Notes under the pieces: generated by a model
What the model was told of the DNA's origin: nothing
Databases searched by the model: none
What the model saw: only the letters and a program-made list of their open reading frames with translations
Shown: positions 8,716 to 45,273 of the stretch, piece by piece
Layout: every line of letters starts with the position of its first letter
Position numbering within the stretch: the first letter of the stretch is position 1
Source: Psychromarinibacter sediminicola
GTDB lineage: Bacteria; Pseudomonadota; Alphaproteobacteria; Rhodobacterales; Rhodobacteraceae
Reading direction: 5' to 3'
Assembly (NCBI RefSeq): GCF_029168335.1
Contig: NZ_JARGYC010000039.1
Coordinates: forward strand, 1 to 45,393
DNA: 45,393 nt
Program-made: the position numbers and the translations under genes

Positions 8716-8796
8716 CGCCACGATCTTCCAGAAGATCGTGGCGGGCAAAATCTTCTAGAAGATTTTGACGCGGCAGGATTTTCTGGAAAATCCTGC
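8716..8796. repeat. Array of three perfect or near-perfect short palindromes (terminator-like)
   Basis: Three palindromes stand side by side. 8716-8743 has 13-bp arms (CGCCACGATCTTC and its complement) around CA. 8746-8767 is a perfect 22-bp palindrome with arm CAAAATCTTCT. 8773-8796 has 11-bp arms (GCAGGATTTTC) around TG and touches the stop codon of the esterase gene. Two of the three recur almost unchanged at 33702-33751. Since they follow a stop codon and precede the plsY operon on the same strand, they probably end the esterase transcript. Confidence 0.8.
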
Positions 8797-27774: not shown

Positions 27775-27787
27775 GGGCGGCTGCGCC

Positions 27788-28786: not shown

Positions 28787-28878
28787 CATGTCCTCCCTTT
28801 CGGCGGCGCGTTGGAATGGCCGCCCATTGGGAAAGTATGAATTCCGGATGCACATAAAGGAAACGAAAACTTTTGAGA

Positions 28879-28903
28879 CATTCATGAAATGACTTTATGA
28901 ATG
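28879..28903. promoter_or_regulatory. Inverted repeat in the LysR / TAXI divergent promoter
   Basis: Arms CATTCAT (28879-28885) and ATGAATG (28897-28903) flank 11 bp in the AT-rich gap between the TAXI operon and the LysR gene; TTCATGAA (28881-28888) is itself palindromic. LysR proteins often bind such interrupted dyads between divergent genes. The right arm overlaps the first possible LysR start codon, which would favour autoregulation or the later ATG at 28909. Confidence 0.45.
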
Positions 28904-29886: not shown

Positions 29887-30477
29887 TTAGTCGAGGACCA
29901 TGTCGATCACCGTGTCGAGCGCGTCCTCGACCCGCGCCCACCGGTTCTCCTCGGGGCCGGGGAACTGGCGGTCGAGCGCCATCATGATCGCGCCGTGGAC
30001 CGCGCACCAGATCGCCTGGGCGACGGTCTCGGTCGGCTTGCCGGCGGCGGCGCCCTTGTCCTGCGCGGCGCGGACGCCGTGGGCCAGGGGCTGCACGGCG
30101 GCGGCGTCGATCTGCACCTGCGAGCCGTTCACCGCGTGCTGTGGCGCGAAGACCAGGCGATAGAGCGCCGGGTTCTCGCGCGCGAAGGCGACGAATTCGC
30201 GCCCGTCGCTGCGCAGCGTGTCGGCGGGCGAGCCGACCCGTGCGCCGGGGGTCCGCATCCGGTCGGACACGAGGTCTTCGAACACCTGTTCGCGCACCTT
30301 TTCGAGCAGGTCGTCCTTGTTGGCGAAATGCGCGTAGAGCGCCGGCGCGCTGCATCCGATACGCTTGGCGAGGACCGACAACGAAAGAGAGTCGTCGCCT
30401 TCCTGCATCAGCGCGATGGCCTCGCTCACCGCCCGCCCGCGAATGTCTATGGCGTCTTCTTTCCTCGGCCTCGCCAT
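29887..30477 (-). CDS. TetR-family repressor with WHG-type C-terminal domain (copy 1)
   Basis: A 196-residue regulator. The helix-turn-helix is at about 25-60 (LSLSVLAKRIGCSAPALYAHFANKDDLLEKV). The C-terminal ligand domain contains FARENPALYRLVFAPQHA and WCAVHGAIMMALDRQFPG, the Trp/His-Gly motif of the WHG (TetR_C_33) group. AGGAGG precedes the ATG. It is closely related to the next upstream TetR gene: both share the FAR-NPALYR-VFAP block, a similar HTH and the VHGAIM/LHGAIM block. A promoter with an inverted repeat in its spacer lies at 30604-30632, suggesting self-repression. Target genes and ligand are unknown. Confidence 0.9.
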   Translation of the reverse strand: MARPRKEDAIDIRGRAVSEAIALMQEGDDSLSLSVLAKRIGCSAPALYAHFANKDDLLEKVREQVFEDLVSDRMRTPGARVGSPADTLRSDGREFVAFARENPALYRLVFAPQHAVNGSQVQIDAAAVQPLAHGVRAAQDKGAAAGKPTETVAQAIWCAVHGAIMMALDRQFPGPEENRWARVEDALDTVIDMVLD

Positions 30478-30866: not shown

Positions 30867-31574
30867 TCAGGTTGCGGCGGGCGTTTCGAGCCGGGACAGC
30901 AGGAGCGACAGCGACCGCTCCGCCATGTCCCAGCGCGCGTCCTCGGCCCCGGGCAGCGTGCCGTCGAGCGCCAGCATGATGGCGCCGTGCAGCGTCACCC
31001 AGATCAGCGCCGCGACGGCCTCGGCGTCCTGGCCCGGGGCGAAGCCGGCCGCCTGGGCGCGGTCGACCGCCTGCGTCAGCGGGGTCAGCGCGCCGTCGCG
31101 CAGGCAGGCGCCGTTATCCGCCGTCGGGTGGGACGGGGCGAAGACGATGCGGTAGAGCGCCGGGTTCTGGCGGGCGAACGCGATGAAGCTGTGCGCCTCG
31201 TCGTGGAGGGCCTCGGCGGGGCAGACCGCGGCGTCCGGCGGCTGTCGTTCGGTCTGCATCCGGTCGAGGGCGGTCTGCCGCACCTCTTCCAGCAGCGCGT
31301 CGCGGTTGACGAAATGCGTGTAGAGCGCCGGCGTGCTGAGGCCGATGCCGCGGGCGACGGCCGAGAGCGTGAGCGCCTGCGGGCCCTCATCGAGCAGGGC
31401 CATCGCCTCGGCGAGCGCCCGCTCGCGCACCATCCGCGACCGGAGGCGTCGGCGTCCGGCGGGTCTATCCTGCGGCATGGCCCCCCGCGCGCCGCCCGGA
31501 TCGAGGGGGCGTGCCACGGCTCGGGTCGCACGATCACCGCGTGCCCGAAAGAGGGACAGGTTGCGATCGGACAT
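30867..31574 (-). CDS. TetR-family repressor with WHG-type C-terminal domain (copy 2)
   Basis: A regulator related to copy 1, of 235 residues if started at 31574. That ATG has a good TAAGGAG site 6 bases upstream, but gives an unusual, Arg-rich N-terminal extension of about 45 residues; the ATG at 31478 (MPQDRPAGRRRL) would give 203 residues, matching copy 1, but lacks a good site. The helix-turn-helix is in LTLSAVARGIGLSTPALYTHFVNRDALLEEV style sequence, and the ligand domain has FARQNPALYRIVFAPSH and TLHGAIMLALDGTLPG. It is divergent from the DUF2218 gene, which it may control. Confidence 0.85.
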   Translation of the reverse strand: MSDRNLSLFRARGDRATRAVARPLDPGGARGAMPQDRPAGRRRLRSRMVRERALAEAMALLDEGPQALTLSAVARGIGLSTPALYTHFVNRDALLEEVRQTALDRMQTERQPPDAAVCPAEALHDEAHSFIAFARQNPALYRIVFAPSHPTADNGACLRDGALTPLTQAVDRAQAAGFAPGQDAEAVAALIWVTLHGAIMLALDGTLPGAEDARWDMAERSLSLLLSRLETPAAT

Positions 31575-32064: not shown

Positions 32065-32231
32065 AGATCAGAGGGTTGCAGGAAAGACTTGCGGCTGGTC
32101 GCAGGGCGCGCCTAATGTGACGCCAGTTGCGCACCGGGGCGCGCCGGGTGGCGGGTTGGACCGTTCCAGACGATCGGTCCGCACCGTCGGCCCGGCCCCG
32201 GTTCGCCCGATGTCACAGGCGGACCCAGCCC

Positions 32232-33134
32232 ATGCCGAACCCGATTCTCATCGACATCAACGCCTTTCTGATCAGCGCCCGGACCGGGGGCTTCTCGGCC
32301 GCCGCGCGCGAGATCGGAACGACGCCGTCGGTCGTGTCGAAGCGTGTCGGGCGGCTGGAGGCCGAGATCGGCGAGCGGCTGTTCAAGCGCTCCACCCGGG
32401 CGCTGGTTCTGACGCCCGAGGGCGAGCGGCTGCAGCCCGAATTGCAGCGCATCGTGGCCGAGCTGGAGGACACGCTGACGAACCGCGCCCTGAGCGGCAC
32501 CGAGCTGCGCGGGTCGCTGCGAATCCGCACGCCGACCACCGTGGGCGCGCAGTTCGTGGGGCCCGCGGTGCATCGATTCCAGCACCGCAACCCGGCGATG
32601 ACGGTCGAGCTGCACCTGCTGGACCGGCCGGTGAACCCGCTGGAGGACGGCTTCGACATCTCGATGGGCGCGCTGCCGCAAAGCTTCGGCGGGGTGAAGG
32701 AGACGGCGTTCTGCCCCTATCCGCGGGTACTGGTGGCCGCGCCCTCCTATCTGGAGCGGCACCCGGCGCCGCAGGTGCCCGGCGAGATCTCGCGGCACGA
32801 CTGCCTGGCCTTCGTGCTGGTCGGGCACACCTGGACCTTCGAGGGGCCGTCGGGGCCGGTCGCGGTGGATATCCGGGCGCGGTATTCGGTGAACGACAGC
32901 CGCGTGCTGCTGGACGCGGCGGTGGACGGGCTGGGCCTGGCGATGGTGCCGCTGTTCCTGGCGCGGGCGGCGCTGGCCGAGGGGCGGCTGGTGGAGCTGA
33001 TGCCCGACTACCCGGTGTCGGAGCTGTGGTTCAAGGCGCTGGTCCCCAGCCACAAGACGCACCGGCCGGAGGTGATCGCCTTTGTCGAGCATATGCGGCG
33101 CGAGCTGGACCCGGCACCGTGGCTGGAGGCGTGA
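32232..33134 (+). CDS. LysR-family transcriptional regulator
   Basis: A 300-residue LysR protein. Its DNA-binding domain reads AFLISARTGGFSAAAREIGTTPSVVSKRVGRLEAEIG in pieces over about 10-47, followed by RSTRALVLTPEGE; the effector domain (about 88-295) contains RGSLRIRTP, DISMG and AVDGLGLAMVPLFLA. The AxxxGxxPSVVSKRV recognition helix is of the type common in aromatic-degradation LysR proteins (a loose resemblance only). It points the same way as the VOC gene and the amidohydrolase operon downstream, and could activate one of them; there is no divergent partner except the DUF2218 gene behind it. Confidence 0.9.
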   Translation: MPNPILIDINAFLISARTGGFSAAAREIGTTPSVVSKRVGRLEAEIGERLFKRSTRALVLTPEGERLQPELQRIVAELEDTLTNRALSGTELRGSLRIRTPTTVGAQFVGPAVHRFQHRNPAMTVELHLLDRPVNPLEDGFDISMGALPQSFGGVKETAFCPYPRVLVAAPSYLERHPAPQVPGEISRHDCLAFVLVGHTWTFEGPSGPVAVDIRARYSVNDSRVLLDAAVDGLGLAMVPLFLARAALAEGRLVELMPDYPVSELWFKALVPSHKTHRPEVIAFVEHMRRELDPAPWLEA

Positions 33135-33286
33135 CGGGGCGCGGCGGGCTTCTCGATCGCGGTTGCACCGACGGATCGTTGGTGTAGGGTCCCACTCAGG
33201 CACCGCCCTGTCCCGCGACATTGCAACCGACCGCCCGGCACCGACCGGCCCGGTTCAAGTCGTCCCCTGCCACACGAGGACACGCC

Positions 33287-33670
33287 GTGACCTGTGAAAA
33301 ATCCGCATTCCTTCGCCTGGGCCGTTTCGCCCCGACCCTCGGGGTCCGGGACATCGAGGCGTCCTGTCTAATGTACAGCGCCCTGTTCGGGTTGGAGAAG
33401 GTCTTCACCAACGGGGATCCTGTCGGTTTCATGATCCTGAAGAAGGACGCCGCCGAGCTCCACCTGACCTTGCAGAAGGACCACAAGCCTGAGCGGTTCA
33501 ACGTGGCACATCTGCTCGTGTCCGACGTCGACGACGTCCACCGGCGCTGTGTCGAACGCAACCTCCGGATCATCAAGCGCCTGCAGGACAAGGGCTATGG
33601 CCTTCGGGCCTTCGTCTTTGCCGACCTGGACGGCAACCGGATCGACATCGGCCAGGCGCTGGAAGGCTAG
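33287..33670 (+). CDS. VOC-fold (glyoxalase/bleomycin-resistance-like) protein
   Basis: A 127-residue single-domain VOC protein with the family's babab layout: PTLGVRDIEASCLMYSALFG at the start, GFMILKKDAAELHLTL in the middle (likely metal ligands His and Glu), VSDVDDVHRRC, and the closing FVFADLDGNRIDIGQ. Such proteins include antibiotic-binding resistance proteins, glyoxalases and ring-cleavage dioxygenases; the size and missing motifs argue against extradiol dioxygenase. The start is a GTG at 33287 with GAGG upstream. It is followed immediately by a palindrome array that probably ends its transcript, so it is likely separate from the amidohydrolase operon. Confidence 0.82.
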   Translation: MTCEKSAFLRLGRFAPTLGVRDIEASCLMYSALFGLEKVFTNGDPVGFMILKKDAAELHLTLQKDHKPERFNVAHLLVSDVDDVHRRCVERNLRIIKRLQDKGYGLRAFVFADLDGNRIDIGQALEG

Positions 33671-33674
33671 GCGG

Positions 33675-33751
33675 CAGATTTTTCTAGAAAAATCTGGAGG
33701 GCACGATCTTCTGGAAGATCGTGTTGGGCAGGATTTTCTGGAAAATCCTGT
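33675..33751. repeat. Array of three perfect short palindromes after the VOC gene
   Basis: 33675-33696 is a perfect palindrome with arm CAGATTTTTCT. 33702-33723 has 10-bp arms (CACGATCTTC) around TG. 33729-33750 has 10-bp arms (CAGGATTTTC) around TG, and its bases are identical to 8774-8795. The array begins 4 bp after the VOC stop codon. The second and third elements recur in the array at 8716-8796. Likely terminators; the remaining 130 bp to the amidohydrolase gene show nothing else I can name. Confidence 0.8.
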
Positions 33752-33879
33752 TGCGTCGCGGCGGCCGTCCGCGCGGGTTTCCGGCAAGTTCCGGCGCAGG
33801 ACCTTTCGCGGTTTGCGATGTTCTCGGGGCGATTCCGGCTTGTTACGTTTCCAAACGCGAACAATGACGGACCCTTCCC

Positions 33880-34953
33880 ATGACGGACGCCCCGTTCCGG
33901 ATCGACTGTGACTTTCACCTGCCGCAGGCGGCGGTGACCGAGCTGTTGCCCTATCTGGACGAGTACTGGACCCGGCAGATCACCGACCGGGCGATGCACA
34001 GGATGCCGTTCCGCCTGTCCTCCTACCCGCCGAACGCGCCGCTGACGCGGAACCCGGCCTATGACGATCTGACCGTGTCCGGCGCGCTGGACCGGTTCGA
34101 CCTGTCGCTGGCCGTCGCGTCGATGCTGCACGGGGTCGTGGCGCTGCACAATCCCGACATGCGCGCGGCGCTGCTGCGGGCGGTCAACGACCACCTGGCG
34201 GCGGTCTGGCTTGAGGCCGAGCCGCGGCTCAGGGGCGCGATCCTGGTCTCGGGCGAGGACCCGGCGGCGGCGGTCGAAGAGATCGAGCGGCTGGCCGGCG
34301 ACCGGCGGTTCGTGCAGGTGACGCTGCTGGCGATGCAGGAGGTTCCGCACGGCGCGCGCTTTCACTGGCCGGTCTACGAGGCGGCGGCGCGGCACGGGCT
34401 GGCGGTGGCCTTCCACGCCGGCAGCCTGTATCGCCTGCCGCCCGCCGTCTCGGGCTGGCCGTCCTATCAGTTCGAGGATTACGTGCTGCAGTCGAGCGGG
34501 TTCGAGAACATCCTGGTGGGCCTGCTGGGCGAGGGCGTGTTCCACAAGTTCCCGTCGCTGCGCGTGGTGTTCCAGGAAAGCGGGTTCTCCTGGCTGCCGA
34601 CGACGCTGTGGCGAATCGACAAGACCTGGCGCGGGGTGCGGCAGGAGGTGCCGTGGCTGGACCGGCCGCCGTCGCAGATCATGGACGGGCGGGTGTTCTT
34701 CGGGCTGCAGCCGGTGGATGCGCCGGGGCCGGCCGCGCTGGAGCAGGTGCTGCGCCATATCGGGGGGACGGGTATGCTGCTGTTCTCCACCGATTTTCCG
34801 CACCGGCAGTTCGACGGCGACCCGGTGCCCGAGGGCTTTCCCGACGACGCGCGGCCGGGCCTGTTCGCCGGCAACGCGCTGCGCGCGTATCCGCGGCTCG
34901 CGACCGACCCGGCCGTGCCGGAGCGGCTACGGACAGAGGAGGAACCGGCATGA
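33880..34953 (+). CDS. Amidohydrolase-2 family protein, first of a related pair
   Basis: A 357-residue TIM-barrel metalloprotein of PF04909, cytoplasmic. Likely site residues: Asp11 and His13 (DCDFH), His179 (AFHAG), Glu233 (FQESGFSW) where decarboxylase relatives have a GHxG histidine, and Asp305 (STDFPH). The Asp-x-His plus Glu pattern defines a subgroup distinct from ACMSD. Substrate unknown: hydrolysis or decarboxylation of a cyclic acid are both possible. It overlaps the next gene by 4 bases (ATGA), so it is the first of a coupled operon amidohydrolase-amidohydrolase-Rieske-MFS. The start at 33880 gives the family N-terminus; the ribosome site is weak. Confidence 0.85.
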   Translation: MTDAPFRIDCDFHLPQAAVTELLPYLDEYWTRQITDRAMHRMPFRLSSYPPNAPLTRNPAYDDLTVSGALDRFDLSLAVASMLHGVVALHNPDMRAALLRAVNDHLAAVWLEAEPRLRGAILVSGEDPAAAVEEIERLAGDRRFVQVTLLAMQEVPHGARFHWPVYEAAARHGLAVAFHAGSLYRLPPAVSGWPSYQFEDYVLQSSGFENILVGLLGEGVFHKFPSLRVVFQESGFSWLPTTLWRIDKTWRGVRQEVPWLDRPPSQIMDGRVFFGLQPVDAPGPAALEQVLRHIGGTGMLLFSTDFPHRQFDGDPVPEGFPDDARPGLFAGNALRAYPRLATDPAVPERLRTEEEPA

Positions 34954-36050
34954 ACACGCAACTGCGCCCCGAGAGCGGCGAAAACACGCGGCTGCGGCTG
35001 GTCGACTGCGACATCCACCCGGCGCAGCGGACGGCCGGGGCGCTGTATCCCTATCTGGAACGGCGTTGGGTCGACCATCTGGAGAGCTTCGGCACCCATA
35101 TCCGCCAGGCGCTGGTGGGGCAGCTGGCCTATCCGCGGATGAGCGACGGCGGCATGCGGGTGGATGCCAAGCCCGAGGACGGGCCGGCGGGGTCGAGCCT
35201 GGAGTTGATGCGCGAACAGCACCTCGACCCGCTGGGGATCGAGATCGGCCACCTGATCGCGCTGGGCCGCGGCGGCATGGAAGAGCGCAACCCCGAGCTG
35301 TCGGCGGCAATGGCGCGGGCGGTGAACGACTGGCAGCTGGCGGAGTGGCTGGAGCCGGAGCCGCGGCTGCGCGGCGGCATCGTCGTGCCGCAGGACGTGC
35401 CCGAAAAGGCGGTCGCGGAGATCGAGCGGCACGCGGACGATCCGCGCTTCGTGCAGGTCATCATGTCGACCCGGCCGAACGAGACCATCGGGGCGCGCAA
35501 GTACTGGCCGATCTACCGCGCGGCCGAGGCGGCGGGCCTGCCGGTGGGGCTGCACCCGGCGGGGTATTCCAGCGGCAAGCCGTCGACCGGTGGCGGCTGG
35601 CCCAGCTTCTATTTCCAGGAGCATTACACCTTCGTGCCCGGCTCGCAGGCGCTGGTGACCTCGCTGGTGATCGAGGGCGTGCTGGAGGCGTTCCCGAGGC
35701 TGAAGGTGGCGATCATCGAGGGCGGCTTTTCCTGGGCGCCGGCGCTGGGCTGGCGCATGGACCGGCATTTCGACACGTTCCGTAAGGAAGTGCCGCATCT
35801 GAAGATGAAGCCGTCGGAGTACATGAAACGCCATTTCTGGTGGGCGACGCAGCCGATGGAGGAGCCGAAGAACGGCCGCCATGTCGAGGAGGTGATCGAC
35901 TGGATCGGCTGGGACCGGATCCTGTATTCCAGCGACTATCCGCACTGGGACTACGACAACCCGAATTTCATCTTCAAGTTCCCGCTCGACCCCGAGCGGC
36001 GGGCGGCGGTGTTCGGCGGCAACGCCCGGGCGCTCTACGGTCACGCATGA
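34950..36050 (+). CDS. Amidohydrolase-2 family protein, second of the pair
   Basis: A 366-residue paralogue of the preceding protein, with the same ordered motifs: DCDIH (Asp21, His23), LHPAG (His202), IIEGGFSWAP (Glu257) and SSDYPHWD (Asp329). It differs by an insertion near 60-85 (SDGGMRVDAKPEDG) and the C-terminal DYDNPNFIFKFPLD. Gene order and sequence similarity suggest a heteromeric enzyme or two successive reactions; which one is not visible. GAGGAGG precedes the ATG, and both ends overlap neighbours (ATGA upstream, ATGA with the Rieske gene). The longer open frame upstream is out of use because it lies in the preceding gene. Confidence 0.87.
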   Translation: MNTQLRPESGENTRLRLVDCDIHPAQRTAGALYPYLERRWVDHLESFGTHIRQALVGQLAYPRMSDGGMRVDAKPEDGPAGSSLELMREQHLDPLGIEIGHLIALGRGGMEERNPELSAAMARAVNDWQLAEWLEPEPRLRGGIVVPQDVPEKAVAEIERHADDPRFVQVIMSTRPNETIGARKYWPIYRAAEAAGLPVGLHPAGYSSGKPSTGGGWPSFYFQEHYTFVPGSQALVTSLVIEGVLEAFPRLKVAIIEGGFSWAPALGWRMDRHFDTFRKEVPHLKMKPSEYMKRHFWWATQPMEEPKNGRHVEEVIDWIGWDRILYSSDYPHWDYDNPNFIFKFPLDPERRAAVFGGNARALYGHA

Positions 36051-36463
36051 CCAGGCATGTGGTGGCAGAGGCGTCGGATTTCGCGGATCGCGAGATCCGG
36101 CGGGTGGAGGCCGGCGGCAAGGCCATTGCCCTGGTGCGGGTGGACGGCGCGTTCTTCGCCCTGCTCGACCGCTGCCCGCATGGCGGCGCGGCACTGTCGG
36201 GCGGGCGACTGGCGCATCAGGTCGAGAGCAGCGGGCCGGGGGACTACCGGATCTGCCGGCGCGACGAGATGCTGCGCTGTCCGTGGCACGGCTGGGAATA
36301 CGACCTGAAGACCGGGCAGAGCTGGTCGGACCCGAAATCGACCCGGACGCGCGCTTTCGCGGCCGAGAACGTGGCGGGCGACGAGCTGGTGAAGGGCCCC
36401 TATGTGGCCGAGACGATCCCGGTGACGGTGGAGGGCGACTACGTGGTGGTGGAGCTGCCGTGA
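36047..36463 (+). CDS. Rieske [2Fe-2S] ferredoxin-like protein
   Basis: A 138-residue single-domain Rieske protein. The cluster ligands are Cys43 and His45 (CPHGG) and Cys78 and His81 (CPWHGWEYD). The loop between them is long (32 residues, including SSGPGDYRICRRDEMLR) compared with classical Rieske ferredoxins. No oxygenase alpha subunit or reductase gene is in the operon. It is coupled by 4-base overlaps to the amidohydrolase before it and the MFS gene after it. It may pass electrons to a partner encoded elsewhere, or have a non-redox or regulatory role; that is inference. Confidence 0.9.
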   Translation: MTRHVVAEASDFADREIRRVEAGGKAIALVRVDGAFFALLDRCPHGGAALSGGRLAHQVESSGPGDYRICRRDEMLRCPWHGWEYDLKTGQSWSDPKSTRTRAFAAENVAGDELVKGPYVAETIPVTVEGDYVVVELP

Positions 36464-37689
36464 GCCGGGTCGCCGGGCCGGCATTCCTGGACCGGGCGAC
36501 GCCGCCGACGACCTTCTCGCTGATCGTGCTGACCGGCATCGCGGCGATGGCGATGAACATCTTCCTGCCGTCGCTGGCGCGGATGGCCGAGGATCTGGGC
36601 ACGCGCTATGGCGTGATCCAGCTGTCGGTGGGGCTGTATCTGGGATTCTCGGCGCTGAGCCAGATCGTGCTGGGCCCGCTGGCGGACCGGTTCGGGCGGC
36701 GGCGGGTGATGCTGGCCGCCTACGGCATCTATGCGCTGGCCAGCGTGGCCTGTGCGCTGGCGCCGAGCATCGCGGTGTTCCTGGTCTGCCGCATGTGCCA
36801 GGCGACGGTGCATTCGGGCATCGTGCTGGCCCGCGCCATGGTGCGCGACAGCCATGGCGAGGAGGAGGCCGCGGCGCGGATCGGCTATGTCACCATGGGC
36901 ATGGCGGTGGTGCCGATGCTCAGCCCGATGCTGGGCGGCTGGATCGACCACGCGGTCGGCTGGCGCGGCTGTTTCTGGCTGATGGCGGCGCTGGGCGCGG
37001 GCGGCGTGGCGCTGATCCTCGCCGATGTGGGCGAGTCGCGGCCGTGCGGCTTCGCGCGGTTCGGCGCGCAGTTGCGGCAGTATCCGGCGTTGCTGACGTC
37101 GGGGCGGTACTGGGGCTTCGTGATCGCGACCGTGGCGGCGGCGGGGACGTTCTTTGCCTATCTCGGCGCGGCGCCGTTCATCGGGGCCGAGATCTTCCGC
37201 CTGTCGCCGGAGGCGCTGGGGATGCTGTTCGGCGCGACCTCGGTGGGGTATTTCACCGGCAGTTTCCTGTCGGGCCGGCTGTCGCGCGCGCGGGGCGTGC
37301 GGGCGATGGTGCTTCTGGGAACGGCGACGACCACCGGGGCGGTGGCCCTGTCGCTGGGGCTGTTTATGGCCGGGCTGGGAAGCGCGGCGAGCTTCTTCGG
37401 GCTGACGGTGGTGATGGGCGTCGGCTATGGCATGACCATGCCCAACGCGACGGCGGGGTCGCTGTCGGTCAGGCCGGACCTCGCCGGCACGGCCAGCGGG
37501 CTGGGCGGGGCGATCACGATTGGGGCCGGCGCGGGGCTGTCGGCGCTGGCCGGGGCGTCGGTGGGGCCGGTCCGCGGGGTGGAGACGCTGCTGACGATCC
37601 AGCTGGGCTGTGCCCTTGTCGGGCTGGCTGTGGCGCTGTGGCTCCGGCGGCTGCCGGCCCTGCCACCTTACGCGAATCGCGAAAGTTAA
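36460..37689 (+). CDS. MFS transporter, Bcr/CflA-type
   Basis: A 409-residue 12-helix major facilitator. Motif A between helices 2 and 3 is GPLADRFGRRRV at 72-83; the antiporter-like region (AMVRDSHGEEEAAARIGYVTMGMAVVPMLSP in pieces) and GGWIDHAVGWRGCF place it with the Bcr/CflA drug-proton antiporters. In this operon it more likely exports a product or takes up a related acid than acts as a drug pump. The start is a GTG (36460) overlapping the Rieske stop (GTGA). The TRAP genes start 152 bp downstream on the same strand. Confidence 0.9.
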   Translation: MSRVAGPAFLDRATPPTTFSLIVLTGIAAMAMNIFLPSLARMAEDLGTRYGVIQLSVGLYLGFSALSQIVLGPLADRFGRRRVMLAAYGIYALASVACALAPSIAVFLVCRMCQATVHSGIVLARAMVRDSHGEEEAAARIGYVTMGMAVVPMLSPMLGGWIDHAVGWRGCFWLMAALGAGGVALILADVGESRPCGFARFGAQLRQYPALLTSGRYWGFVIATVAAAGTFFAYLGAAPFIGAEIFRLSPEALGMLFGATSVGYFTGSFLSGRLSRARGVRAMVLLGTATTTGAVALSLGLFMAGLGSAASFFGLTVVMGVGYGMTMPNATAGSLSVRPDLAGTASGLGGAITIGAGAGLSALAGASVGPVRGVETLLTIQLGCALVGLAVALWLRRLPALPPYANRES

Positions 37690-37841
37690 AGACGCGCTTT
37701 GTGCCGTTCCCGGCATAGGCCGGCCCCGTCTACATTTGATTCACGCAAGATGCCCGATTTGGCGACCGGCCCGGGCACCCGCGACAAGCAAGGAGCCCCG
37801 GCGGCGATCCGGGGCCACGCCAACAGGGAGGAGACAGTCCG

Positions 37842-38960
37842 ATGAGCGTTCGGCTGACCGCAGCAACACTCGCCGCCACGACGGCGCTGGCCGGGGCGCA
37901 GACCGCCGCGGCCGAGGAATACATCTACAGTTCCTGGTTCGGCACCAATCACACCGCCAACGTGATGGCGCTGGGCCCGTTCTTCGAGAAGCTGGCCGAG
38001 GCCACCGACGGCGAAGCCGAGTGGAAGCTGGTGCCCGGCGCGCAGCTCGCCTCCGGCCCCGGCACGCCCGAGGCGGTGGGCAACGGGCTGGTCGACGGCG
38101 GGATCGCCATCGCGCCCTACCAGCCGCGGCTGATGGCGGCGACGAACACGATCTTTTCCAACTCGCTTCTGGGCAAGGACACGCTGGCCGCGGCGGCGGC
38201 GATGAACGAGGCGGTGCTGTTCGGCTGTCCCGAATGCCGCGAGGAATACCGCGACCTGAACGCGGTGGGCTTCGCGGGCTACGCGACCACGCCCTACGTC
38301 TTCATGTGCGCGACGGATGTGCAGAGCGTGGACGACCTGAAGGGGCTAAAGGTCCGCTCCTCCGGCGGCGGCGTGTCGATTTCCGAGATCGCGGGCGCGA
38401 CGCCGGTGTCGATGTCGCCGGGCGAGGCGACCACGGCGCTGGAGCGCGGCACGCTGGATTGCGTGCTGGGCGCGGTGTCCTGGCTGAAGAGCTACGGCTA
38501 TCAGGACGTGGTCGAGACCGTGGTCGACAGCCCGATGGGCACCGGCGGTCCGCCGCTTCTGATGTTTCTCAACCGCGACATCTGGAACGGCATGAGCCCG
38601 GAGGTCCGCGCCGCGCATATCGAGCTTGCGCCGGAGCTGGTCGCCTCGGCCTCCTACGACGCGCAGCTGGCCAACGATGCCAGGATCGTCGAGGCGGCCG
38701 TCGCCGACGGGCTGAAGATCACCCCGGACAGCGCCGAGTTCCAGGCGATCATGGAAGAGCACGACCGCCGCCAGCGCGACCGGGTCATCGAGGAGGCGAA
38801 AGCCGCCGGCGTCGAGAACCCCGAGGAGATCCTCGACTTCTACCTTGCCTCCTACGACCGCTGGAAGACCCTGCTGGACGAGGAAGGCCGCGACCGCGAG
38901 ACCTTCGTGCGGCTATTGTGGGACGAGATCTACAGCAAGGTCGATCCCGAGGCGCTCTGA
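37842..38960 (+). CDS. TRAP transporter DctP-type solute receptor
   Basis: A 372-residue periplasmic receptor with signal peptide (MSVRLTAATLAATTALAGAQ then TAAA). The mature protein has YIYSSWFGTNHTAN and the conserved LKGLKVRSSGG segment; Arg172 is the residue that salt-bridges the ligand carboxylate in DctP/SiaP receptors. A CPEC pair (Cys129, Cys132) plus further cysteines near 156 and 206 suggest disulfides, unusual in this family. GGGAGGAG precedes the ATG. It opens a DctP-DctQ-DctM operon and by position should import the substrate of the upstream amidohydrolases; the ligand is a carboxylate by family rule. Confidence 0.92.
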   Translation: MSVRLTAATLAATTALAGAQTAAAEEYIYSSWFGTNHTANVMALGPFFEKLAEATDGEAEWKLVPGAQLASGPGTPEAVGNGLVDGGIAIAPYQPRLMAATNTIFSNSLLGKDTLAAAAAMNEAVLFGCPECREEYRDLNAVGFAGYATTPYVFMCATDVQSVDDLKGLKVRSSGGGVSISEIAGATPVSMSPGEATTALERGTLDCVLGAVSWLKSYGYQDVVETVVDSPMGTGGPPLLMFLNRDIWNGMSPEVRAAHIELAPELVASASYDAQLANDARIVEAAVADGLKITPDSAEFQAIMEEHDRRQRDRVIEEAKAAGVENPEEILDFYLASYDRWKTLLDEEGRDRETFVRLLWDEIYSKVDPEAL

Positions 38961-39035
38961 CACACGGATCGGACAACGGCAGGCGGCGGCGCCCGGGGCC
39001 GGGAACCGCCCGGCCTGCCTGCGGATGAGGGACGG

Positions 39036-39560
39036 ATGAAGCGACTACTGGACCTGACGGTGAACGCGGCGGCCTGGGTGGCGGCGGCGGCGGCGATCCT
39101 GATGATGCTGCACGTCACCGTGGACGTCGCCGGGCGGACGCTGTTCCACGCGCCGCTGACCGGCACGCTGGAGATCGTGGCGAACTATCACATGGCGGCG
39201 CTGGCCTTTCTGCCGCTGGCGCTGATCGCGCGCGAGAAGGGGCATATCATCGTCGAGCTGTTCACCGGCTGGATGCGACCCGGCCCGCGCCGGATCCTCG
39301 ACGGGCTGGTGGGGATCATCACCGTCGCCTATGTCGGCGTCTTCACCTGGAAGGCGGTGGACGTGGCCATCGACAAGACCCGCATCCGGGACGCCAAGGA
39401 GGCGGGGTTCGGCTTTGTCGAGGTCTGGCCGGCGCGCTGGTTCGTCGTCGCGGGCTTCGGGCTGATGGCGCTGTATGTGGCGATCCACGTGGTGCGCGAC
39501 CTGCGGGCCGGGCTGTCCGGCGGCGACGGTGACGACACGGATAACGGGGCCGGCCGGTGA
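39036..39560 (+). CDS. TRAP transporter small permease (DctQ)
   Basis: A 174-residue inner-membrane protein with four hydrophobic segments (about 8-32, 47-66, 87-107, 132-152) and the family's DVAGRTLFHAPLTGTLEI and AREKGHIIVEL motifs. It forms the membrane part together with DctM. The ATG has GAGGGACGG upstream; the gene starts 75 bp after the receptor and overlaps the DctM gene by 4 bases (GTGA). The C-terminal tail is acidic (GDGDDTDNG). Assignment is firm; the ligand is set by the receptor. Confidence 0.93.
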   Translation: MKRLLDLTVNAAAWVAAAAAILMMLHVTVDVAGRTLFHAPLTGTLEIVANYHMAALAFLPLALIAREKGHIIVELFTGWMRPGPRRILDGLVGIITVAYVGVFTWKAVDVAIDKTRIRDAKEAGFGFVEVWPARWFVVAGFGLMALYVAIHVVRDLRAGLSGGDGDDTDNGAGR

Positions 39561-40903
39561 GCGCCGAGCTGTTCGGCCTGGTTCTGAGCCCGGAGCTTCT
39601 GGGCTTCGGCAGCCTCGCGCTGGTGCTGCTGCTGATCGCGGTGCGGATGCCGATCGGCGTGGCGCTGGGCGTGGTGTCGTTTTTGGGCTTCACGCTGGTC
39701 CGCAACGAGCAGGTGGCGCTCGCCATGATGGCGCAGACGCCCTATGAGCTGGCCGCGAACTGGGGGCTGTCGGCGATCCCGATGTTCATCCTGATGGGTG
39801 CGATCGCCCACAATACCGGCATATCGGAGTCGCTGTTCCGGGCGGCGCGGCTCTGGCTCTCCTCCCTCCCCGGAGGGCTGGCGGTGGCCACGAACTTCGC
39901 CTCGGCGGGGTTCGCGGCCGCCTCCGGCTCGTCGGTGGCCACGGCGGCGACGATGGGGCGGCTGGCGATCCCGACGATGCTGAAGGCGGGCTACGCGCCG
40001 ACGCTGGCCACCGGCGTGGTCGCCTCGTCGGGGACGCTGGGCGCGCTGATCCCGCCGTCGATCATGTTCGTGGTCTACGGGGTCTTCGCCGAGGTCTCGA
40101 TCACCAAGCTGCTGATCGCCGGCGTGGTCCCCGGCATCCTGACCGCCTTCGTCTACGCGGCGATGATCATGGGCCGCTGCTGGCTGAACCCGGCCATCGC
40201 GCCGCCGTCGCAGAGCCATCGGCCGCGCGCCGAGGTCTGGCGCGAACGGTGGCAGTCGCTGCTGCCGGTCTGGCCGCTCCTGCTGCTGATCTTCGGGATC
40301 ATCGGCGGGCTCTATGGCGGCATCTTCACGCCGACCGAGGCCGGGGCGGCGGGGGCGTTTTTGTCCTTCTGCGTGGCCGCGCTGCAGGGGCGGCTGACGC
40401 GGCGCGTGGTGTCGACGAGCGTGATGGAGGCGATCCGCACCACGGCGCAGCTGTTCTTCGTGGCCTACGGCGCGGTGATGTACACCCGGTTCCTGGCGCT
40501 CGTGGGCCTGCCGGGCATCATGGCGGAGATGATGGGCAGCTGGGCGGTGGACCCGGTGCTGATGCTGGTGGCGGTATCGATCATCTATCTGATCCTGGGG
40601 ATGTTCCTGGACCCGCTGGGGGTGCTCTTGCTGACCCTGCCGGTGGTGCAGCCGATGTTCGAGGCGCTGGGGCTGGATCCGATCTGGCTGGGCGTGATCG
40701 TGGTGAAATACATCGAGATCGGCCTGCTGACGCCGCCTGTGGGGTTCAACGCCTATGTGGTGAAGAACGTGGTGGGGGATTCGATCCCGCTGGAGACGAT
40801 CTTCAAGGGCATCGCGTGGTTTCTGCTGTGCGAGCTGGTGATCATGGTGCTGATCCTGAGCTTCCCGCAGCTGTCGCTGTGGCTGCCGGCCACGATGCGC
40901 TGA
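39557..40903 (+). CDS. TRAP transporter large permease (DctM)
   Basis: A 448-residue transport subunit with about 12 membrane segments. Family motifs are visible: VALAMMAQTPYELAANWGLSAIPMFILMG, the GFAAASGSSVATAATMGRLAIPTM loop, TLGALIPPSIMFVVYG, GIFTPTEAGAAGAF and GLLTPPVGFNAYVVKNV. It couples solute uptake to a sodium or proton gradient with DctQ. The start is a GTG (39557) inside the DctQ stop. It converges on the RND pump gene, with only 15 bp between stop codons and no clear terminator. Confidence 0.95.
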   Translation: MSAELFGLVLSPELLGFGSLALVLLLIAVRMPIGVALGVVSFLGFTLVRNEQVALAMMAQTPYELAANWGLSAIPMFILMGAIAHNTGISESLFRAARLWLSSLPGGLAVATNFASAGFAAASGSSVATAATMGRLAIPTMLKAGYAPTLATGVVASSGTLGALIPPSIMFVVYGVFAEVSITKLLIAGVVPGILTAFVYAAMIMGRCWLNPAIAPPSQSHRPRAEVWRERWQSLLPVWPLLLLIFGIIGGLYGGIFTPTEAGAAGAFLSFCVAALQGRLTRRVVSTSVMEAIRTTAQLFFVAYGAVMYTRFLALVGLPGIMAEMMGSWAVDPVLMLVAVSIIYLILGMFLDPLGVLLLTLPVVQPMFEALGLDPIWLGVIVVKYIEIGLLTPPVGFNAYVVKNVVGDSIPLETIFKGIAWFLLCELVIMVLILSFPQLSLWLPATMR

Positions 40904-40918: not shown

Positions 40919-43900
40919 TCAGACGGCTGCGGCCGGCGCCACGGCATCGGGTTCCGTCCGCGGCTTTCGCTGGCCGAGCATGAGCATGGCCGGCGTGACC
41001 ACGAGGGTCAGCAGCGTCGCGATCACCAGACCGCCGACGATCGCCGCCGAGAGCTCGGTCCAGTATTGCGTGGACGGCGCGCCGAAGACGATCTCTCTGC
41101 CGAAGAGGTCGATATTCATGCCGAGCACCATCGGCATGAGGCCGAGAGCCGTGGTGATGGAGGTCAGCAGCACGGGCCGGAGGCGTTGCGCGCCGGTTCT
41201 CAGAGCGGCTTCCTGCGGCGAGGCGCCGGCGCGGCGCAATTCGTTGAAGGAATCGATCAGCACGATGTTGTTGTTCACGACGATCCCGGCGAGCGCGATG
41301 ACGCCGACGCCCCCCATCACGACGCCGAAGGGGCGGCCGGTGATGATCAGGCCGAGCAGCACGCCGGCGATCGAGAAGACGATCGCGCTCATGACCACGA
41401 AGGCCTGGTAGAAGGTGTTGAACTGCAGGATCAGGATCGTGAACATCAGCACGATGGCGGCGACGAAGGCGCTGCCGAGGAACGCCATCGATTCCTGCTG
41501 GTCCTGCGTCTCGCCCGCGAAGTCGACGGCCGCGTCCTCCGGCAGCGCGTTTCCGTCGAGCGCCGACCGGAGCGCGGCGATCTGGTCGCTGACCAGCAGG
41601 CCGGGCGCGACGTTGGCCTCGATCGTCGTGATCCTCGTCTGGTCGATTCGCCGCAGCACGCCGACCCGCTCGGACGGTTCGAAGGAGACGAAGTTCGAGA
41701 TCGGCACCAGGCCGGCGGAGGTCGGCACCCGGAGGTCGCCCAGCTCGCCCAGCGACCGGTCGTCGTCGGGGAAACGCACCCGCACGTCCAGTTCGCCGTC
41801 GACATCGCCGGGGCGGTAGTTCGTCACCGTGATCCCCTGGGTGAGAAGCTGGATGGCCTGGCCCAGCACGCTGACGTCGGCGCCGTAGCGGGCGGCCTGC
41901 GTCCGGTCGACATTGATCGCGACCTCGACGCCGGGAAGCGGGCGCGTGTCGGTGACGTCGACGAAGCCGCCGATGGAGTCCATCGCGGCCAGAACGGCCT
42001 CCACGGCCTGCTGCTGGCCGGCGGGCGTGGCGGCCGAGACCTGCAGGTTCACGGGCTTGCCGCCGCCGGGCCCGCCGCTTTCGGATTCCACCTGCACGTC
42101 GATGCCGGCGATATCCGTCAGCATGGCGCGCACGTCTTCGGCGATCTCGGCGGCCGGGCGTCTTTGGTCCCACGCGACCAGGTCCATCTGGATCGTGCCG
42201 ATGATGTCCTCGTCGCCCTGTCCGGTGTTGATGACCGAGCGCGCGTAGAGGCTCTCGACCCCTTCGGTGCCGGCAAGCCTGGTTTCGACCTGCCGCACGA
42301 GGTCGTCGCGCTCGTAGATCGACAGGTTGTCCCGGGCGCGGATTTGCACCTGCAGCGCTTCCGGCTCGATCGAGGGGAAGAAGCTGACGCCGCTCCCCAG
42401 CTCGCCGTAGAGGGCGAAGGATCCCAGGAGCATGGACAGGGCGAGGACCACGGTCGTCCAGGGGCGCAGGATGGCCCATTGCAGCAGGCGCAGGTAGGCC
42501 CCGGTCAGTCCCGGGATCGTCCGCGGGTCGCCGTGCTCGGCGGCGTGGAGCGCCGCCTTTGCCTTGGCCGTCCGCGGCTGGCCCCGGCCGATGACGCCGC
42601 CCATCACCGGAATGAAGATCAGCGCCATGACGAGCGACGCGGAGAGGGTCAGGATGACGGTGATCGGCAGATACTTCATGAACTGCCCGATCAGGCCGGT
42701 CCAGAACAGAAGCGGGAAGAACACGCTCAGCGTGGTCGCCGTCGAGGCGATGATGGGCCAGGCCATGCGCTTGGCGGCATGGGCATAGGCTTGGGCCGGG
42801 GTGTCGCCCGCGTGCAGCCGCCGGTCTGCGAGCTCGACGGTCACGATGGCCCCGTCCACCAGCATCCCGACGACGAGGATCAGCGCGAAGAGCACCACGA
42901 TGTTCATCGTCAGCCCCATCACCCAGATCGCCGCGACCCCGGCGAGGAACGCGCCCGGGATGGCCAGCCCCACGAGGACCGCCGACCGGAACCCCAGCGC
43001 GAACACGATGACCACCATGACCAGCAGGACGGCGGCCAGGACGTTCGATTCGAGATCCGACAGAAGGGTCTTCACCTCCTCGGACTGGTCCTGAAGATAG
43101 GTGACGCGCACGCTGTCCGGCCACGCGCCGCTCATCCGCTCGATCGTGGCCCGCACGGCGGCCACCGTGTCGATGACGTTCGCGCCCGACCGCTTGGTCA
43201 CCTCCAGCGACAGGGCCGGCTGGCCGTCGATTCGGGCGAAGCCGGTGGGCGCCTCGAAGGTCCGGCGGACCGTGGCGACCTCGGCGAAGGTGACCACCGT
43301 GTCGCCGTCCACCTTGACCGGCATCGTCAGGATATCGTCGATATCCTGCACCAGCCCCGGCACCTTCAGCACGATGCGTCCGCCGCCGGTGTCGATGGCG
43401 CCGGCCGCGATCAGCTGGTTGTTGCGCTGAAGCTGGTTCGCCAGGTTATCGAGGTTGAGGTTGTAGGTCTGGAAGACCGTGGGGTCGATCAGGACCTCGA
43501 CGAACTCCTCGCGGGCGCCGCCGATCTCGACTTCGAGGACGCCGGGCAGCGACTCCACCTGAAGCTGCACGTCCTTGGCCAGGTCGTTGAGGGTCCGCTC
43601 GGGCACCGGCCCCGAAAGGGTCGCCGTGATGATCGGAAAGAGGGCGGTGTTGACCTCGGTGACGTTCAGGTCGCGGGCATCCTCGGGCAGGTCGCCCTGG
43701 ACCGTGTCGGCCGCTTCCCTGACCTTTCGCAGCGCTTCCTCGATGTCGCCGCCGGCCTGGAATTCGAGCTGCACGCTCGCGAAGCCCTCGGCCGCCTCGC
43801 TCGACATCGTCTGCAGCCCCTCGATCGCGCTGAACTTGGCTTCCATCGGCTCCAGCAGCAGACGCTCCGCGTCCGAGGGGCTGATCCCGTCGATCCCGGT

Positions 43901-44047
43901 CGAGACGTAGACGAGCGGAAGAGGCACCTCGGGGTTCGCTTCTTTCGGGATGGAAATGTAGGCGAACGCGCCGAACGCGAGCACCATCGCGAGCGCGAGG
44001 ATGACCGCGCGGGTGCGGGAAAAGGCCGCGTCGATGATCGGGTTCAT
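40919..44047 (-). CDS. RND-family efflux transporter, inner-membrane subunit
   Basis: A 1042-residue pump with the AcrB-type duplicated architecture: helix 1 at about 12-32, large periplasmic loop (33-335), helices 2-6, then the second loop and helices. In helix 4 the proton-relay pair of AcrB (Asp407-Asp408) appears as LVDGAIVTVELAD, Asp398 followed by Gly399, so only one aspartate is kept. It lacks the E. coli AcrB lining aromatic pattern that I could check, so drug range is unknown; it fits the broad alphaproteobacterial HAE1-like group. The start overlaps the adaptor stop (ATGA). An outer-membrane TolC-type gene is not in the window. Confidence 0.93.
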   Translation of the reverse strand: MNPIIDAAFSRTRAVILALAMVLAFGAFAYISIPKEANPEVPLPLVYVSTGIDGISPSDAERLLLEPMEAKFSAIEGLQTMSSEAAEGFASVQLEFQAGGDIEEALRKVREAADTVQGDLPEDARDLNVTEVNTALFPIITATLSGPVPERTLNDLAKDVQLQVESLPGVLEVEIGGAREEFVEVLIDPTVFQTYNLNLDNLANQLQRNNQLIAAGAIDTGGGRIVLKVPGLVQDIDDILTMPVKVDGDTVVTFAEVATVRRTFEAPTGFARIDGQPALSLEVTKRSGANVIDTVAAVRATIERMSGAWPDSVRVTYLQDQSEEVKTLLSDLESNVLAAVLLVMVVIVFALGFRSAVLVGLAIPGAFLAGVAAIWVMGLTMNIVVLFALILVVGMLVDGAIVTVELADRRLHAGDTPAQAYAHAAKRMAWPIIASTATTLSVFFPLLFWTGLIGQFMKYLPITVILTLSASLVMALIFIPVMGGVIGRGQPRTAKAKAALHAAEHGDPRTIPGLTGAYLRLLQWAILRPWTTVVLALSMLLGSFALYGELGSGVSFFPSIEPEALQVQIRARDNLSIYERDDLVRQVETRLAGTEGVESLYARSVINTGQGDEDIIGTIQMDLVAWDQRRPAAEIAEDVRAMLTDIAGIDVQVESESGGPGGGKPVNLQVSAATPAGQQQAVEAVLAAMDSIGGFVDVTDTRPLPGVEVAINVDRTQAARYGADVSVLGQAIQLLTQGITVTNYRPGDVDGELDVRVRFPDDDRSLGELGDLRVPTSAGLVPISNFVSFEPSERVGVLRRIDQTRITTIEANVAPGLLVSDQIAALRSALDGNALPEDAAVDFAGETQDQQESMAFLGSAFVAAIVLMFTILILQFNTFYQAFVVMSAIVFSIAGVLLGLIITGRPFGVVMGGVGVIALAGIVVNNNIVLIDSFNELRRAGASPQEAALRTGAQRLRPVLLTSITTALGLMPMVLGMNIDLFGREIVFGAPSTQYWTELSAAIVGGLVIATLLTLVVTPAMLMLGQRKPRTEPDAVAPAAAV

Positions 44048-45219
44048 TGGTCCGCCTCGCCTTGCTCTTCGAGGCCCGCGTGTTCGGAGCGCCCCGGGGC
44101 ATCGTCCCTCTGGACGCGGACCGCTTCGCCTTCGCGGACGAAGCCCTGGCCGACGACGATGATCTGCGCCGTCTCGGGCAGCCCCGTGGCCCAGAGGCCG
44201 CCGATCTCGGCGTTGATCAGGTCGACCTCGTGGAACTGCACCACGCCGTCGACCACCGTCTTGATGCCGGTCCGGCCTTCGGGATTGAGCGACACGACCG
44301 AGGCATCGACGAAATGCGCGGTCTCCTCGCCGGTGCGGATCGTGACCTCGGCCGAGACCCCGGCCAGAATGGCGCCGTCCTCGTTCGGCACCTGGACCTC
44401 GGCGAGGAAGGTGCGCGTCTCCGGCGAGGCCGCGGTGCCGACGAAGGTGACTTCCCCCTCGCGGGTCTGGCCGGTGACGAACCGGACTTCGGCCGGGCTG
44501 CCCGTCTCGATGCCCGCGCGGTTCTGCTGCGGAATCTCGAAGGCGACGGTGATCGGATGGTTGTCCACGAGCCGGGCCACCGGGTCACCGGCCGCCGCGT
44601 ATTCCCCGTCGTTGATCATCAGGTCCTCGATGCGTCCGGCGAACGGCGCGGTGACGGTGAGGGTGTCGAGCGTGTCGCGGGCCGCCGAGACCTGGGACTC
44701 CGCCGCCGCCAGCGTGGCGCGGGCCTCCGCGACGCGGTCGACCGTGCCCACGCCGCGATCGCGGAGCGTCGTGGCGTTGTCCAGCTCGCGTTGTGCCCGG
44801 TCCCGTTCCTCCTCTGCCTGGGCCAGCGCGGCCTCGGCGCTGTCCGCGTTGAGCTGGGCGATGACGGCGCCGCGTGCCACGACCTGCCCCTTGCTGACCG
44901 GCACGGATGCGACGGTGCCCGAGGCTTCCGTGACGATCTCGGTGTCGCGTTCGGGCAATGCCTGTCCCTGCGCGCTGAAGCTCATGGGAACTGGCTCGGC
45001 AACCGACTCCCGGACGACCACGGAGGACGGCGGCGGCGCCGCGGCCTCTGCCGGCTCGCTGGCCGGCGGATCGGTCCGCACGAACCCGCTCCCCATCCAG
45101 AGCAGGATCGCCAGAAGGATCGCGCAGGCCGTCCACAGGGACCGGGCGGCGCCAGGGTCGGTCTCGAAGGTCAGGTCGGCGCGCGCCGTCGCGCGCTCGG
45201 CATCGGGTTTTTCGGACAT
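44044..45219 (-). CDS. RND efflux periplasmic adaptor (membrane fusion protein)
   Basis: A 391-residue adaptor linking the RND pump to an outer-membrane channel. A membrane anchor lies at about 28-47 (SLWTACAILLAILLWMGSG). It is followed by a lipoyl half-motif (GTVASVPVSKGQVVARGAVIAQL), a coiled-coil hairpin (about 125-180, rich in Ala/Glu: AEEERDRAQRELDNATTLRD), the second lipoyl half (VTAPFAGRIEDLMINDGEYA) and beta-barrel domain. The ATG at 45219 starts the anchor-containing protein; an earlier ATG at 45270 sits in the operator region and is less likely. It is divergent from a TetR gene. Confidence 0.92.
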   Translation of the reverse strand: MSEKPDAERATARADLTFETDPGAARSLWTACAILLAILLWMGSGFVRTDPPASEPAEAAAPPPSSVVVRESVAEPVPMSFSAQGQALPERDTEIVTEASGTVASVPVSKGQVVARGAVIAQLNADSAEAALAQAEEERDRAQRELDNATTLRDRGVGTVDRVAEARATLAAAESQVSAARDTLDTLTVTAPFAGRIEDLMINDGEYAAAGDPVARLVDNHPITVAFEIPQQNRAGIETGSPAEVRFVTGQTREGEVTFVGTAASPETRTFLAEVQVPNEDGAILAGVSAEVTIRTGEETAHFVDASVVSLNPEGRTGIKTVVDGVVQFHEVDLINAEIGGLWATGLPETAQIIVVGQGFVREGEAVRVQRDDAPGRSEHAGLEEQGEADQ

Positions 45220-45273
45220 GGAGAACGGTTCCGGTAGAAAACGGTTGATGTGTCTGCGGCCGGAGGGCAATTA

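Follow-up and report, generated by a model that had tools for sequence, protein, structure and literature searches.

We found that a gene unit of Psychromarinibacter sediminicola very probably encodes an amidohydrolase-related dinuclear oxygenase (ARO), an enzyme predicted to hydroxylate a C-H bond in an O2-dependent reaction. The unit lies on contig NZ_JARGYC010000039.1 (assembly GCF_029168335.1); the window is this whole stretch of 45,393 nt, and all coordinates refer to it. The predicted oxygenase consists of two proteins of the PF04909 family, here called AH-A and AH-B, and a Rieske [2Fe-2S] ferredoxin. Their genes are followed by genes for a major facilitator superfamily (MFS) transporter and a tripartite ATP-independent periplasmic (TRAP) transporter. 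An earlier reading, made from the letters of the window without database searches (the sequence-only reading), had described two paralogous PF04909 genes with a Rieske and an MFS gene, then a complete DctPQM system, and the open reading frames and Pfam matches confirmed this content. The genes of the unit and the two upstream of it are as follows.

32229..33134, + strand: LysR-family regulator (Pfam LysR_substrate and HTH_1)
33221..33670, + strand: VOC/glyoxalase-family protein (Pfam Glyoxalase, E 9.5e-10)
33880..34953, + strand: AH-A, AibH1-like, predicted α' subunit (Pfam Amidohydro_2, PF04909, E 1.9e-30)
34950..36050, + strand: AH-B, AibH2-like, predicted catalytic α subunit, 366 aa from the ATG at 34950 (Amidohydro_2, PF04909, E 2.8e-47)
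36047..36463, + strand: Rieske [2Fe-2S] ferredoxin (Pfam Rieske, E 2.9e-17)
36460..37689, + strand: MFS transporter, Bcr/CflA efflux family (Pfam MFS_1; TIGR00710, 210.5 bits)
37842..38960, + strand: TRAP solute receptor DctP (Pfam DctP, E 3.7e-22)
39036..39560, + strand: TRAP small permease DctQ (Pfam DctQ, E 4.3e-22)
39557..40903, + strand: TRAP large permease DctM (Pfam DctM, E 1.6e-89; TIGR00786 over its cut-off)

The Pfam matches of the seven proteins from AH-A to DctM all exceed the family cut-offs.

The closest characterized relatives of AH-A and AH-B are the two subunits of AibH1H2. AibH1H2 is the 2-aminoisobutyrate monooxygenase of Rhodococcus wratislaviensis, an α2-α'2 heterotetramer (PMC7782822, PMC10401708). 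AibH2 holds a Mn/Fe site (earlier described as diiron) on D25, H27, H211, E265, D337 and H340, with D342 close by; AibH1 holds one metal on D24, H26, H201, E255 and D328; and the reductase AibF and the Rieske protein AibG supply the electrons (PMC7782822, PMC10401708, PMC10811679, PMC12141560). Among solved structures, AH-B matched AibH2 (6m1w_B) best, with 40.9% identity across 347 aligned residues and an E value of 1.3e-82 with a 365-aa query or 1.2e-82 with the full 366 aa. Next were 8sm7 (5.9e-65) and 8sm6 (SfbO; 5.1e-64). AH-A matched AibH1 (6m2i_A) at 1.1e-60, with 35.6% identity across 309 aligned residues. The two chains were assigned to AibH2 and AibH1 by chain lengths and ligand positions. 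The 365-aa query, which starts at the second codon of AH-B, was used in the Pfam, NCBIfam, first solved-structure and relatives/distribution searches; the 366-aa protein was used for the neighborhood tally, the second solved-structure search, the residue alignment and the tree. Residue numbers follow the 366-aa protein and are one higher than in the second-codon mapping.

The metal ligands of both AibH1H2 subunits are conserved. In AH-B, all six AibH2 ligands are identical (D21, H23, H202, E257, D329 and H332), as is the second-sphere residue D334, equivalent to AibH2 D342. In AH-A, the five ligands of the AibH1 single-metal site are present (D11, H13, H179, E233 and D305), and Q310 occupies the position of AibH2 D342. 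We aligned 89 rows for AH-B, 82 for AH-A (one short row was dropped) and 76 for the Rieske protein; in the AH-B alignment, loci L135 and L136 repeat the rows of L011 and L017. D21, H23, H202 and E257 of AH-B occurred in 89/89 rows, and D329, H332 and D334 in 88/88 (one row is cut short). D11 and H13 of AH-A occurred in 80/80 rows (two are cut short), H179 and E233 in 81/82, and D305 in 82/82. Position 310 of AH-A was Q in 64 of the 82 rows, H in 16, Y in one and R in one, and never D. AROs have been delimited by the six AibH2 metal ligands, with a Rieske gene co-occurring in 90% (PMC10401708). The window has PF04909 barrel proteins, the six ligands in AH-B and an adjacent small Rieske gene and, as in the AibH1H2 type, an adjacent α' gene with the five-ligand site. 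Based on these residues, we suggest that AH-B is the catalytic α subunit, whose metal site is predicted to be dinuclear (Mn/Fe or Fe/Fe), and that AH-A is probably a non-catalytic α' subunit with a single-metal site.

We found that the three genes stay together in other genomes. Using AH-B alone as the query, we took the best 80 of 461 relatives' loci, many of them from Bradyrhizobium. AH-A adjoined AH-B in 70 of the 80 loci and the Rieske gene did so in 67; both were adjacent in 66. This recurrence in loci fetched by AH-B alone shows that the arrangement is not due to chance. Overlaps of 4 bases occurred at 43/70 AH-A/AH-B junctions and 28/67 AH-B/Rieske junctions, and at 9/10 of each among the closest relatives. 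The sequence-only reading had treated the genes as one linked unit and had said that homologues lying apart in other genomes would count against it; the block of AH-A, AH-B and Rieske genes was instead conserved. AH-A and AH-B distances were correlated (r = 0.944; 70 pairs including the window), and none of 999 permutations reached this value, which shared host ancestry would also raise. This co-inheritance would fit a predicted complex of AH-A with AH-B. The idea that the two enzymes work as a pair is supported by their relatives, which form a single α2-α'2 hydroxylase in AibH1H2.

The Rieske gene is most likely part of the enzyme, because AibH1H2 takes its electrons from a small Rieske protein; by this analogy, the ferredoxin is the likely electron donor to AH-A/AH-B. 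No NCBIfam model scored above its cut-off with the Rieske protein. Its ligands C43, H45, C78 and H81 were present in 76/76 rows, and the loop between the CxH and CxxH motifs was 32 residues long in 74 of the 76, including that of the window (31 in one row and 16 in another). The loop of the carbazole ferredoxin 1vck is ~16 residues (two matched stretches, with one chain residue between them). The 32-residue loop may mark ARO-linked Rieske proteins. As a control, we scanned ~1.5 kb on each side of eight of the PF04909 loci in the genome of P. sediminicola. A CxH...CxxH motif occurred near one of the eight, and that locus is the unit described here. The genome has 11 PF04909 matches in all, and those labelled L004 and L006 both derive from the window. 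Adjacency to a Rieske gene is also the means by which the authors who described AROs found them (PMC10811679).

The sequence-only reading had the pair hydrolyzing or decarboxylating cyclic acids. We consider it very improbable that AH-A and AH-B hydrolyze or decarboxylate cyclic or aromatic acids, with the Rieske protein serving another enzyme. PF04909 does include decarboxylases and hydrolases, and both proteins matched two of them at a low level: 5-carboxyvanillate decarboxylase was the best such match (2e-21 for AH-B, 1.7e-10 for AH-A), and 2-amino-3-carboxymuconate-6-semialdehyde decarboxylase (ACMSD) matched at 3.4e-11 and 6.9e-6, respectively. However, the ARO matches were stronger than the best decarboxylase match by ~61 (AH-B) and ~50 (AH-A) orders of magnitude, seven of the seven AibH2 residues are kept in AH-B, and the Rieske gene stands beside the pair in the 66 loci mentioned above. 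When the PF04909 decarboxylases (ACMSD, 5-carboxyvanillate and gamma-resorcylate) were considered as closest relatives, neither protein belonged with them. We therefore rejected a decarboxylase or hydrolase identity on match strength and on the kept AibH2 and AibH1 residues. The nearest characterized relatives are hydroxylase subunits, and the label "amidohydrolase" in Rieske-linked pairs most likely means an oxygenase, which corrects a misleading annotation.

The genes of the unit are closely packed in two blocks. Overlaps of 4 bases join AH-A to AH-B (ATGA at 34950), AH-B to the Rieske gene (ATGA at 36047), the Rieske gene to the MFS gene (GTGA at 36460) and DctQ to DctM (GTGA at 39557). Overlaps are restricted to these two blocks. 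The MFS and DctP genes are separated by 152 bases (37690-37841), and DctP and DctQ by 75 bases. The sequence-only reading had noted the first three overlaps, those from AH-A to the MFS gene. A scan for promoters and terminators gave no more signals than were found in shuffled sequences. The LysR gene is the probable regulator of the unit. Homologues with 52-65% identity lie near the operons of L009/CIT, L011, L013, L016 and L136, and in the aib cluster the regulator AibR is likewise of the LysR type (PMC7782822). The VOC/glyoxalase gene probably lies outside the unit: it had no match at E 1e-10 in any of the 80 loci and none in the tallied neighborhoods.

Short perfect palindromes, GATCTTCTGGAAGATC and GATTTTCTGGAAAATC, stand in pairs at 33705-33747, in an intergenic position, and at 8722-8792. 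The pattern had 26 exact matches in the genome of P. sediminicola, several of them paired 27 or 55 bases apart, and the reversed pattern had none. The palindromes are a dispersed repeat family.

The transporter genes were assigned by family. The MFS protein passed the test for Bcr/CflA efflux transporters (TIGR00710, 210.5 bits against a cut-off of 200.9), which favors export over co-import of a product, the two roles that the earlier reading had allowed. DctP, DctQ and DctM genes are all present together. The closest solved DctP was 4pe3, at only 9.5e-18. This is too distant for the transfer of a ligand, and none can be carried over to the DctP of the window.

We found that TRAP genes accompany the oxygenase genes in a single clade. 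In a tree of 88 AH-B rows, the window, L009-L017 and L039 formed one clade (support 100/99). The tree program flagged long branches in parts of the tree outside this clade. The sister group was eight Bradyrhizobium sequences, with weak support (88/68). Each of these eight loci has a transporter gene upstream; the example from L018 scored 399.2 bits, just under the cut-off of 418.55 for aromatic-acid/H+ symporters. We surveyed ten close relatives of the window (L009 was extended with L133/L134, and L017 with L136). TRAP genes were present in 9/10, with DctP alone visible in L010, where the stretch ends; L016 had none except a DctM match at 25%. DctP homologues with 51-67% identity occurred in L009 (71% over its cut stretch), L010 (204 residues only), L011, L017 and L039, and a second type of TRAP receptor, 38-41% identical to the window's DctP, in L011-L015. 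An MFS homologue (51-61% identity) was found in 4/10.

These data also bear on the possibility that the pair and the Rieske protein form an oxygenase while the TRAP and MFS genes are unrelated neighbors, in which case the enzyme would act on something other than the TRAP ligand. The 152-base gap ahead of DctP is consistent with this, as are the two receptor types in relatives, the one relative with only a distant DctM match, and the symporter-like gene in place of TRAP genes in the Bradyrhizobium sister group. We consider it unlikely, however, since TRAP genes occur in nine of the ten close relatives and the eight rows labelled as TRAP-linked fall in the one clade, as against nine symporter rows. 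In addition, a permease has been reported near AibH2-like genes at 40% (PMC10401708). The earlier proposal of a carboxylate importer as partner of the enzymes is plausible, and the carboxylate itself would be a prediction.

Relatives in the clade carry genes for catabolic-type enzymes beside the unit. Family names of these neighbors come from profile searches, in which the IlvD-type and aconitase X (AcnX) proteins scored below the NCBIfam cut-offs. Among the ten close relatives, an IlvD-type dehydratase was found in six, a PF12831 oxidoreductase in seven, a GMC dehydrogenase in five (one of them a 39% match along 240 residues where the locus stops) and an AcnX large subunit in four; in eight, a GFA-family gene was close to the unit. 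One relative's IlvD-type neighbor was closest to dihydroxy-acid dehydratases (6nte, 8.8e-98). Two-subunit aconitase X genes stand beside the ARO unit in L009, L010, L136 and L039. In AcnX subclasses IIc to IIf, the residues characteristic of each of the two known activities are absent (PMC8184944). Citreimonas and Roseivivax have the dehydratase cassette precisely between their MFS and DctP genes, at the place of the window's 152 bases. L017 and L039, the first to branch in the clade, also have parts of the cassette, and the simpler interpretation is therefore that the lineage of the window lost it. We also tallied the Pfam families of 51 neighboring proteins at 13 selected loci, namely L016 and 12 that are more distant; L041 contributed no proteins. 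The families were mixed, and no common substrate was evident among the 25 of 75 listed.

From this clade we tentatively suggest, as a possibility that we hold to be somewhat doubtful, an aerobic route not yet described, in which a hydroxy-carboxylate, once imported, would be hydroxylated at an unactivated C-H bond by the Mn/Fe oxygenase and then processed by flavin oxidoreductases and iron-sulfur dehydratases (IlvD-type and the two-subunit AcnX), and the window would have kept the importer, oxygenase and pump and lost the cassette. The GFA-family gene in eight of the ten relatives would also allow for an initial demethylation with release of formaldehyde. Enzymes elsewhere in the genome of P. 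sediminicola did not point to a substrate. AcnX was not found in this genome. IlvD matches were 33-36% identical over most of their length (40% over one 168-residue stretch), GMC matches at most 47%, GFA matches at most 36%, and PF12831 matches 22-32%, or 37% within a single short stretch; the PF12831 comparison covered 8 of the 32 matches, the four long ones included.

The distant matches would also suit a detoxification module, with a toxic acid being altered by the oxygenase and pumped out by the Bcr/CflA transporter. The score of the MFS protein fits such a role, and so does a gene pair on the opposite strand downstream, read from its translations as a putative RND pump. We regard this module as quite improbable; there would be little reason to place an importer next to a detoxifying enzyme, and the unit is flanked by catabolic-type enzymes in relatives. 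The downstream pair (40919-45270, - strand) is convergent with the unit and comprises a 1042-aa protein next to it and a putative membrane-fusion partner.

Taken together, we propose an oxygenase with its own importer. The TRAP transporter would import a small carboxylate, and a heteromeric dinuclear-metal monooxygenase would hydroxylate one of its aliphatic C-H bonds. AH-B would be the catalytic α subunit (Mn/Fe or Fe/Fe) and AH-A the structural α' subunit. The operon's Rieske ferredoxin would deliver electrons, its reductase probably being encoded elsewhere in the genome, and the Bcr/CflA pump may export the product or a by-product. Of this, the genes present, the metal-ligand residues and the clade are direct observations; oxygenase activity, metal identity, electron path, co-transcription and TRAP cargo are predictions.

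Several observations weigh against this proposal. The features that separate mononuclear from dinuclear PF04909 sites are not known, according to PMC10811679, so the identity of the ligands is no proof but strong, indirect evidence; the activity and metal content of AH-A/AH-B are predictions. One α' copy in L137 lacks three conserved residues (the equivalents of H179, E233 and H308). An adjacent AH-A or Rieske gene is missing from 14/80 loci. Ten of these form one mostly Acetobacteraceae group in the tree, 10/10 without an adjacent Rieske gene and 8/10 without an adjacent AH-A; in L053 and L063 the contig stops on the side of the missing gene, L034 has no AH-A, its contig ending there, and no Rieske gene, and L081 lacks the Rieske gene. 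There is no reductase gene in the operon. A PF00970 search of the genome, for which AibF itself was not a query, found only two places, read from translations and neighbors as PaaE and NqrF. Co-transcription of the MFS and DctP genes, which would have to cross the 152 bases between them, is presumed. Finally, searches for AcnX, IlvD, GMC, GFA and PF12831 found no downstream enzyme for the host.

Further observations concern these same genes. The Acetobacteraceae-rich group (L042, L052, L069, L073-L076, L079, L083 and L084) keeps all metal ligands, but a Rieske gene is absent from the 600 bases downstream; its members are possibly AROs with another electron donor. L137 (8593 onward) and L138 come from a same-genus genome with two ARO pairs, with AH-B at 47% and one α' lacking the three residues named above. 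A PF14759 (Reductase_C) search of the P. sediminicola genome found one place, a 409-aa reductase-like gene on contig C275. It could encode a reducer of the Rieske protein, and it stands among genes read as housekeeping.

The unit is accessory. In the relatives set of 61 genomes, matches at E <= 0.001 were obtained in 16, but matches better than 1e-30 in only four (the genome of P. sediminicola, G024, G003 and G047). Family-wide, 6 of 394 genomes, again including P. sediminicola, matched at E <= 1e-100.

Elsewhere in the window is a second importer-amidohydrolase set (24836-28885, - strand, and 28897-29811, + strand). It comprises an NMT1_3 receptor, which we take to be of the TAXI type, a DctM-type permease, a PF04909 match and a divergent LysR gene. 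Two neighboring TetR regulators, both TetR_C_33, lie at 29887-30477 and 30867-31574 (- strand), and a protein with a full Urate_ox_N match is encoded at 22056-23279 (+ strand).

AROs activate strong C-H bonds using manganese and iron. The clade described here links such a predicted oxygenase to an importer with a measurable ligand and, in relatives, to downstream-type enzymes of partly known chemistry. It also gives a lead to the function of bacterial two-subunit aconitase X; to our knowledge, no function has been assigned to the bacterial subclasses IIc to IIf. In the papers cited here, 2-aminoisobutyrate is the one native catabolic ARO substrate with a worked-out pathway (PMC7782822, PMC10401708, PMC10811679), and through the linkage of oxygenase, importer and downstream enzymes a second one should be findable.

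The unit is a further member of a known enzyme class, in an operon context that we did not find described. The sequence-only reading had allowed that its enzymes might match a characterized pathway with a known substrate. The enzyme class is indeed described (PMC7782822, PMC10401708, PMC10811679), but a pathway with this gene set was not found in the open-access literature on TRAP with Rieske and amidohydrolase, AibH1H2, AROs, PtmU3 and SfbO, judged largely by titles. For TRAP with Rieske and amidohydrolase, the one hit was a review on contaminants. Like other DctPQM transporters, that of the window has all three subunits, but its nearest solved receptor (4pe3) is distant. With SfbO and other Rieske-linked AROs, the unit shares a strong match of the catalytic subunit (8sm6 and 8sm7) and a nearby Rieske gene (PMC10811679). 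It differs from SfbO in having an AibH1-like gene ahead of the catalytic gene; the excerpt of PMC10811679 does not state a partner for SfbO. Compared with the aib cluster, identity is only 40.9% (AH-B/AibH2) and 35.6% (AH-A/AibH1), and TRAP and Bcr/CflA genes replace the amino acid permease. The unit has no adjacent AibF or aibD1/E/C/A; neither the AibF reductase nor the D-MeSer enzymes were among the nine proteins of 32229-40903, the region in which aibD1/E/C/A were looked for. The two clusters nevertheless have the same gene order (H1-H2-Rieske, as in aibH1-aibH2-aibG), all metal-ligand residues and the pairing of a single-metal with a two-metal subunit, and each includes a LysR regulator and a transporter.

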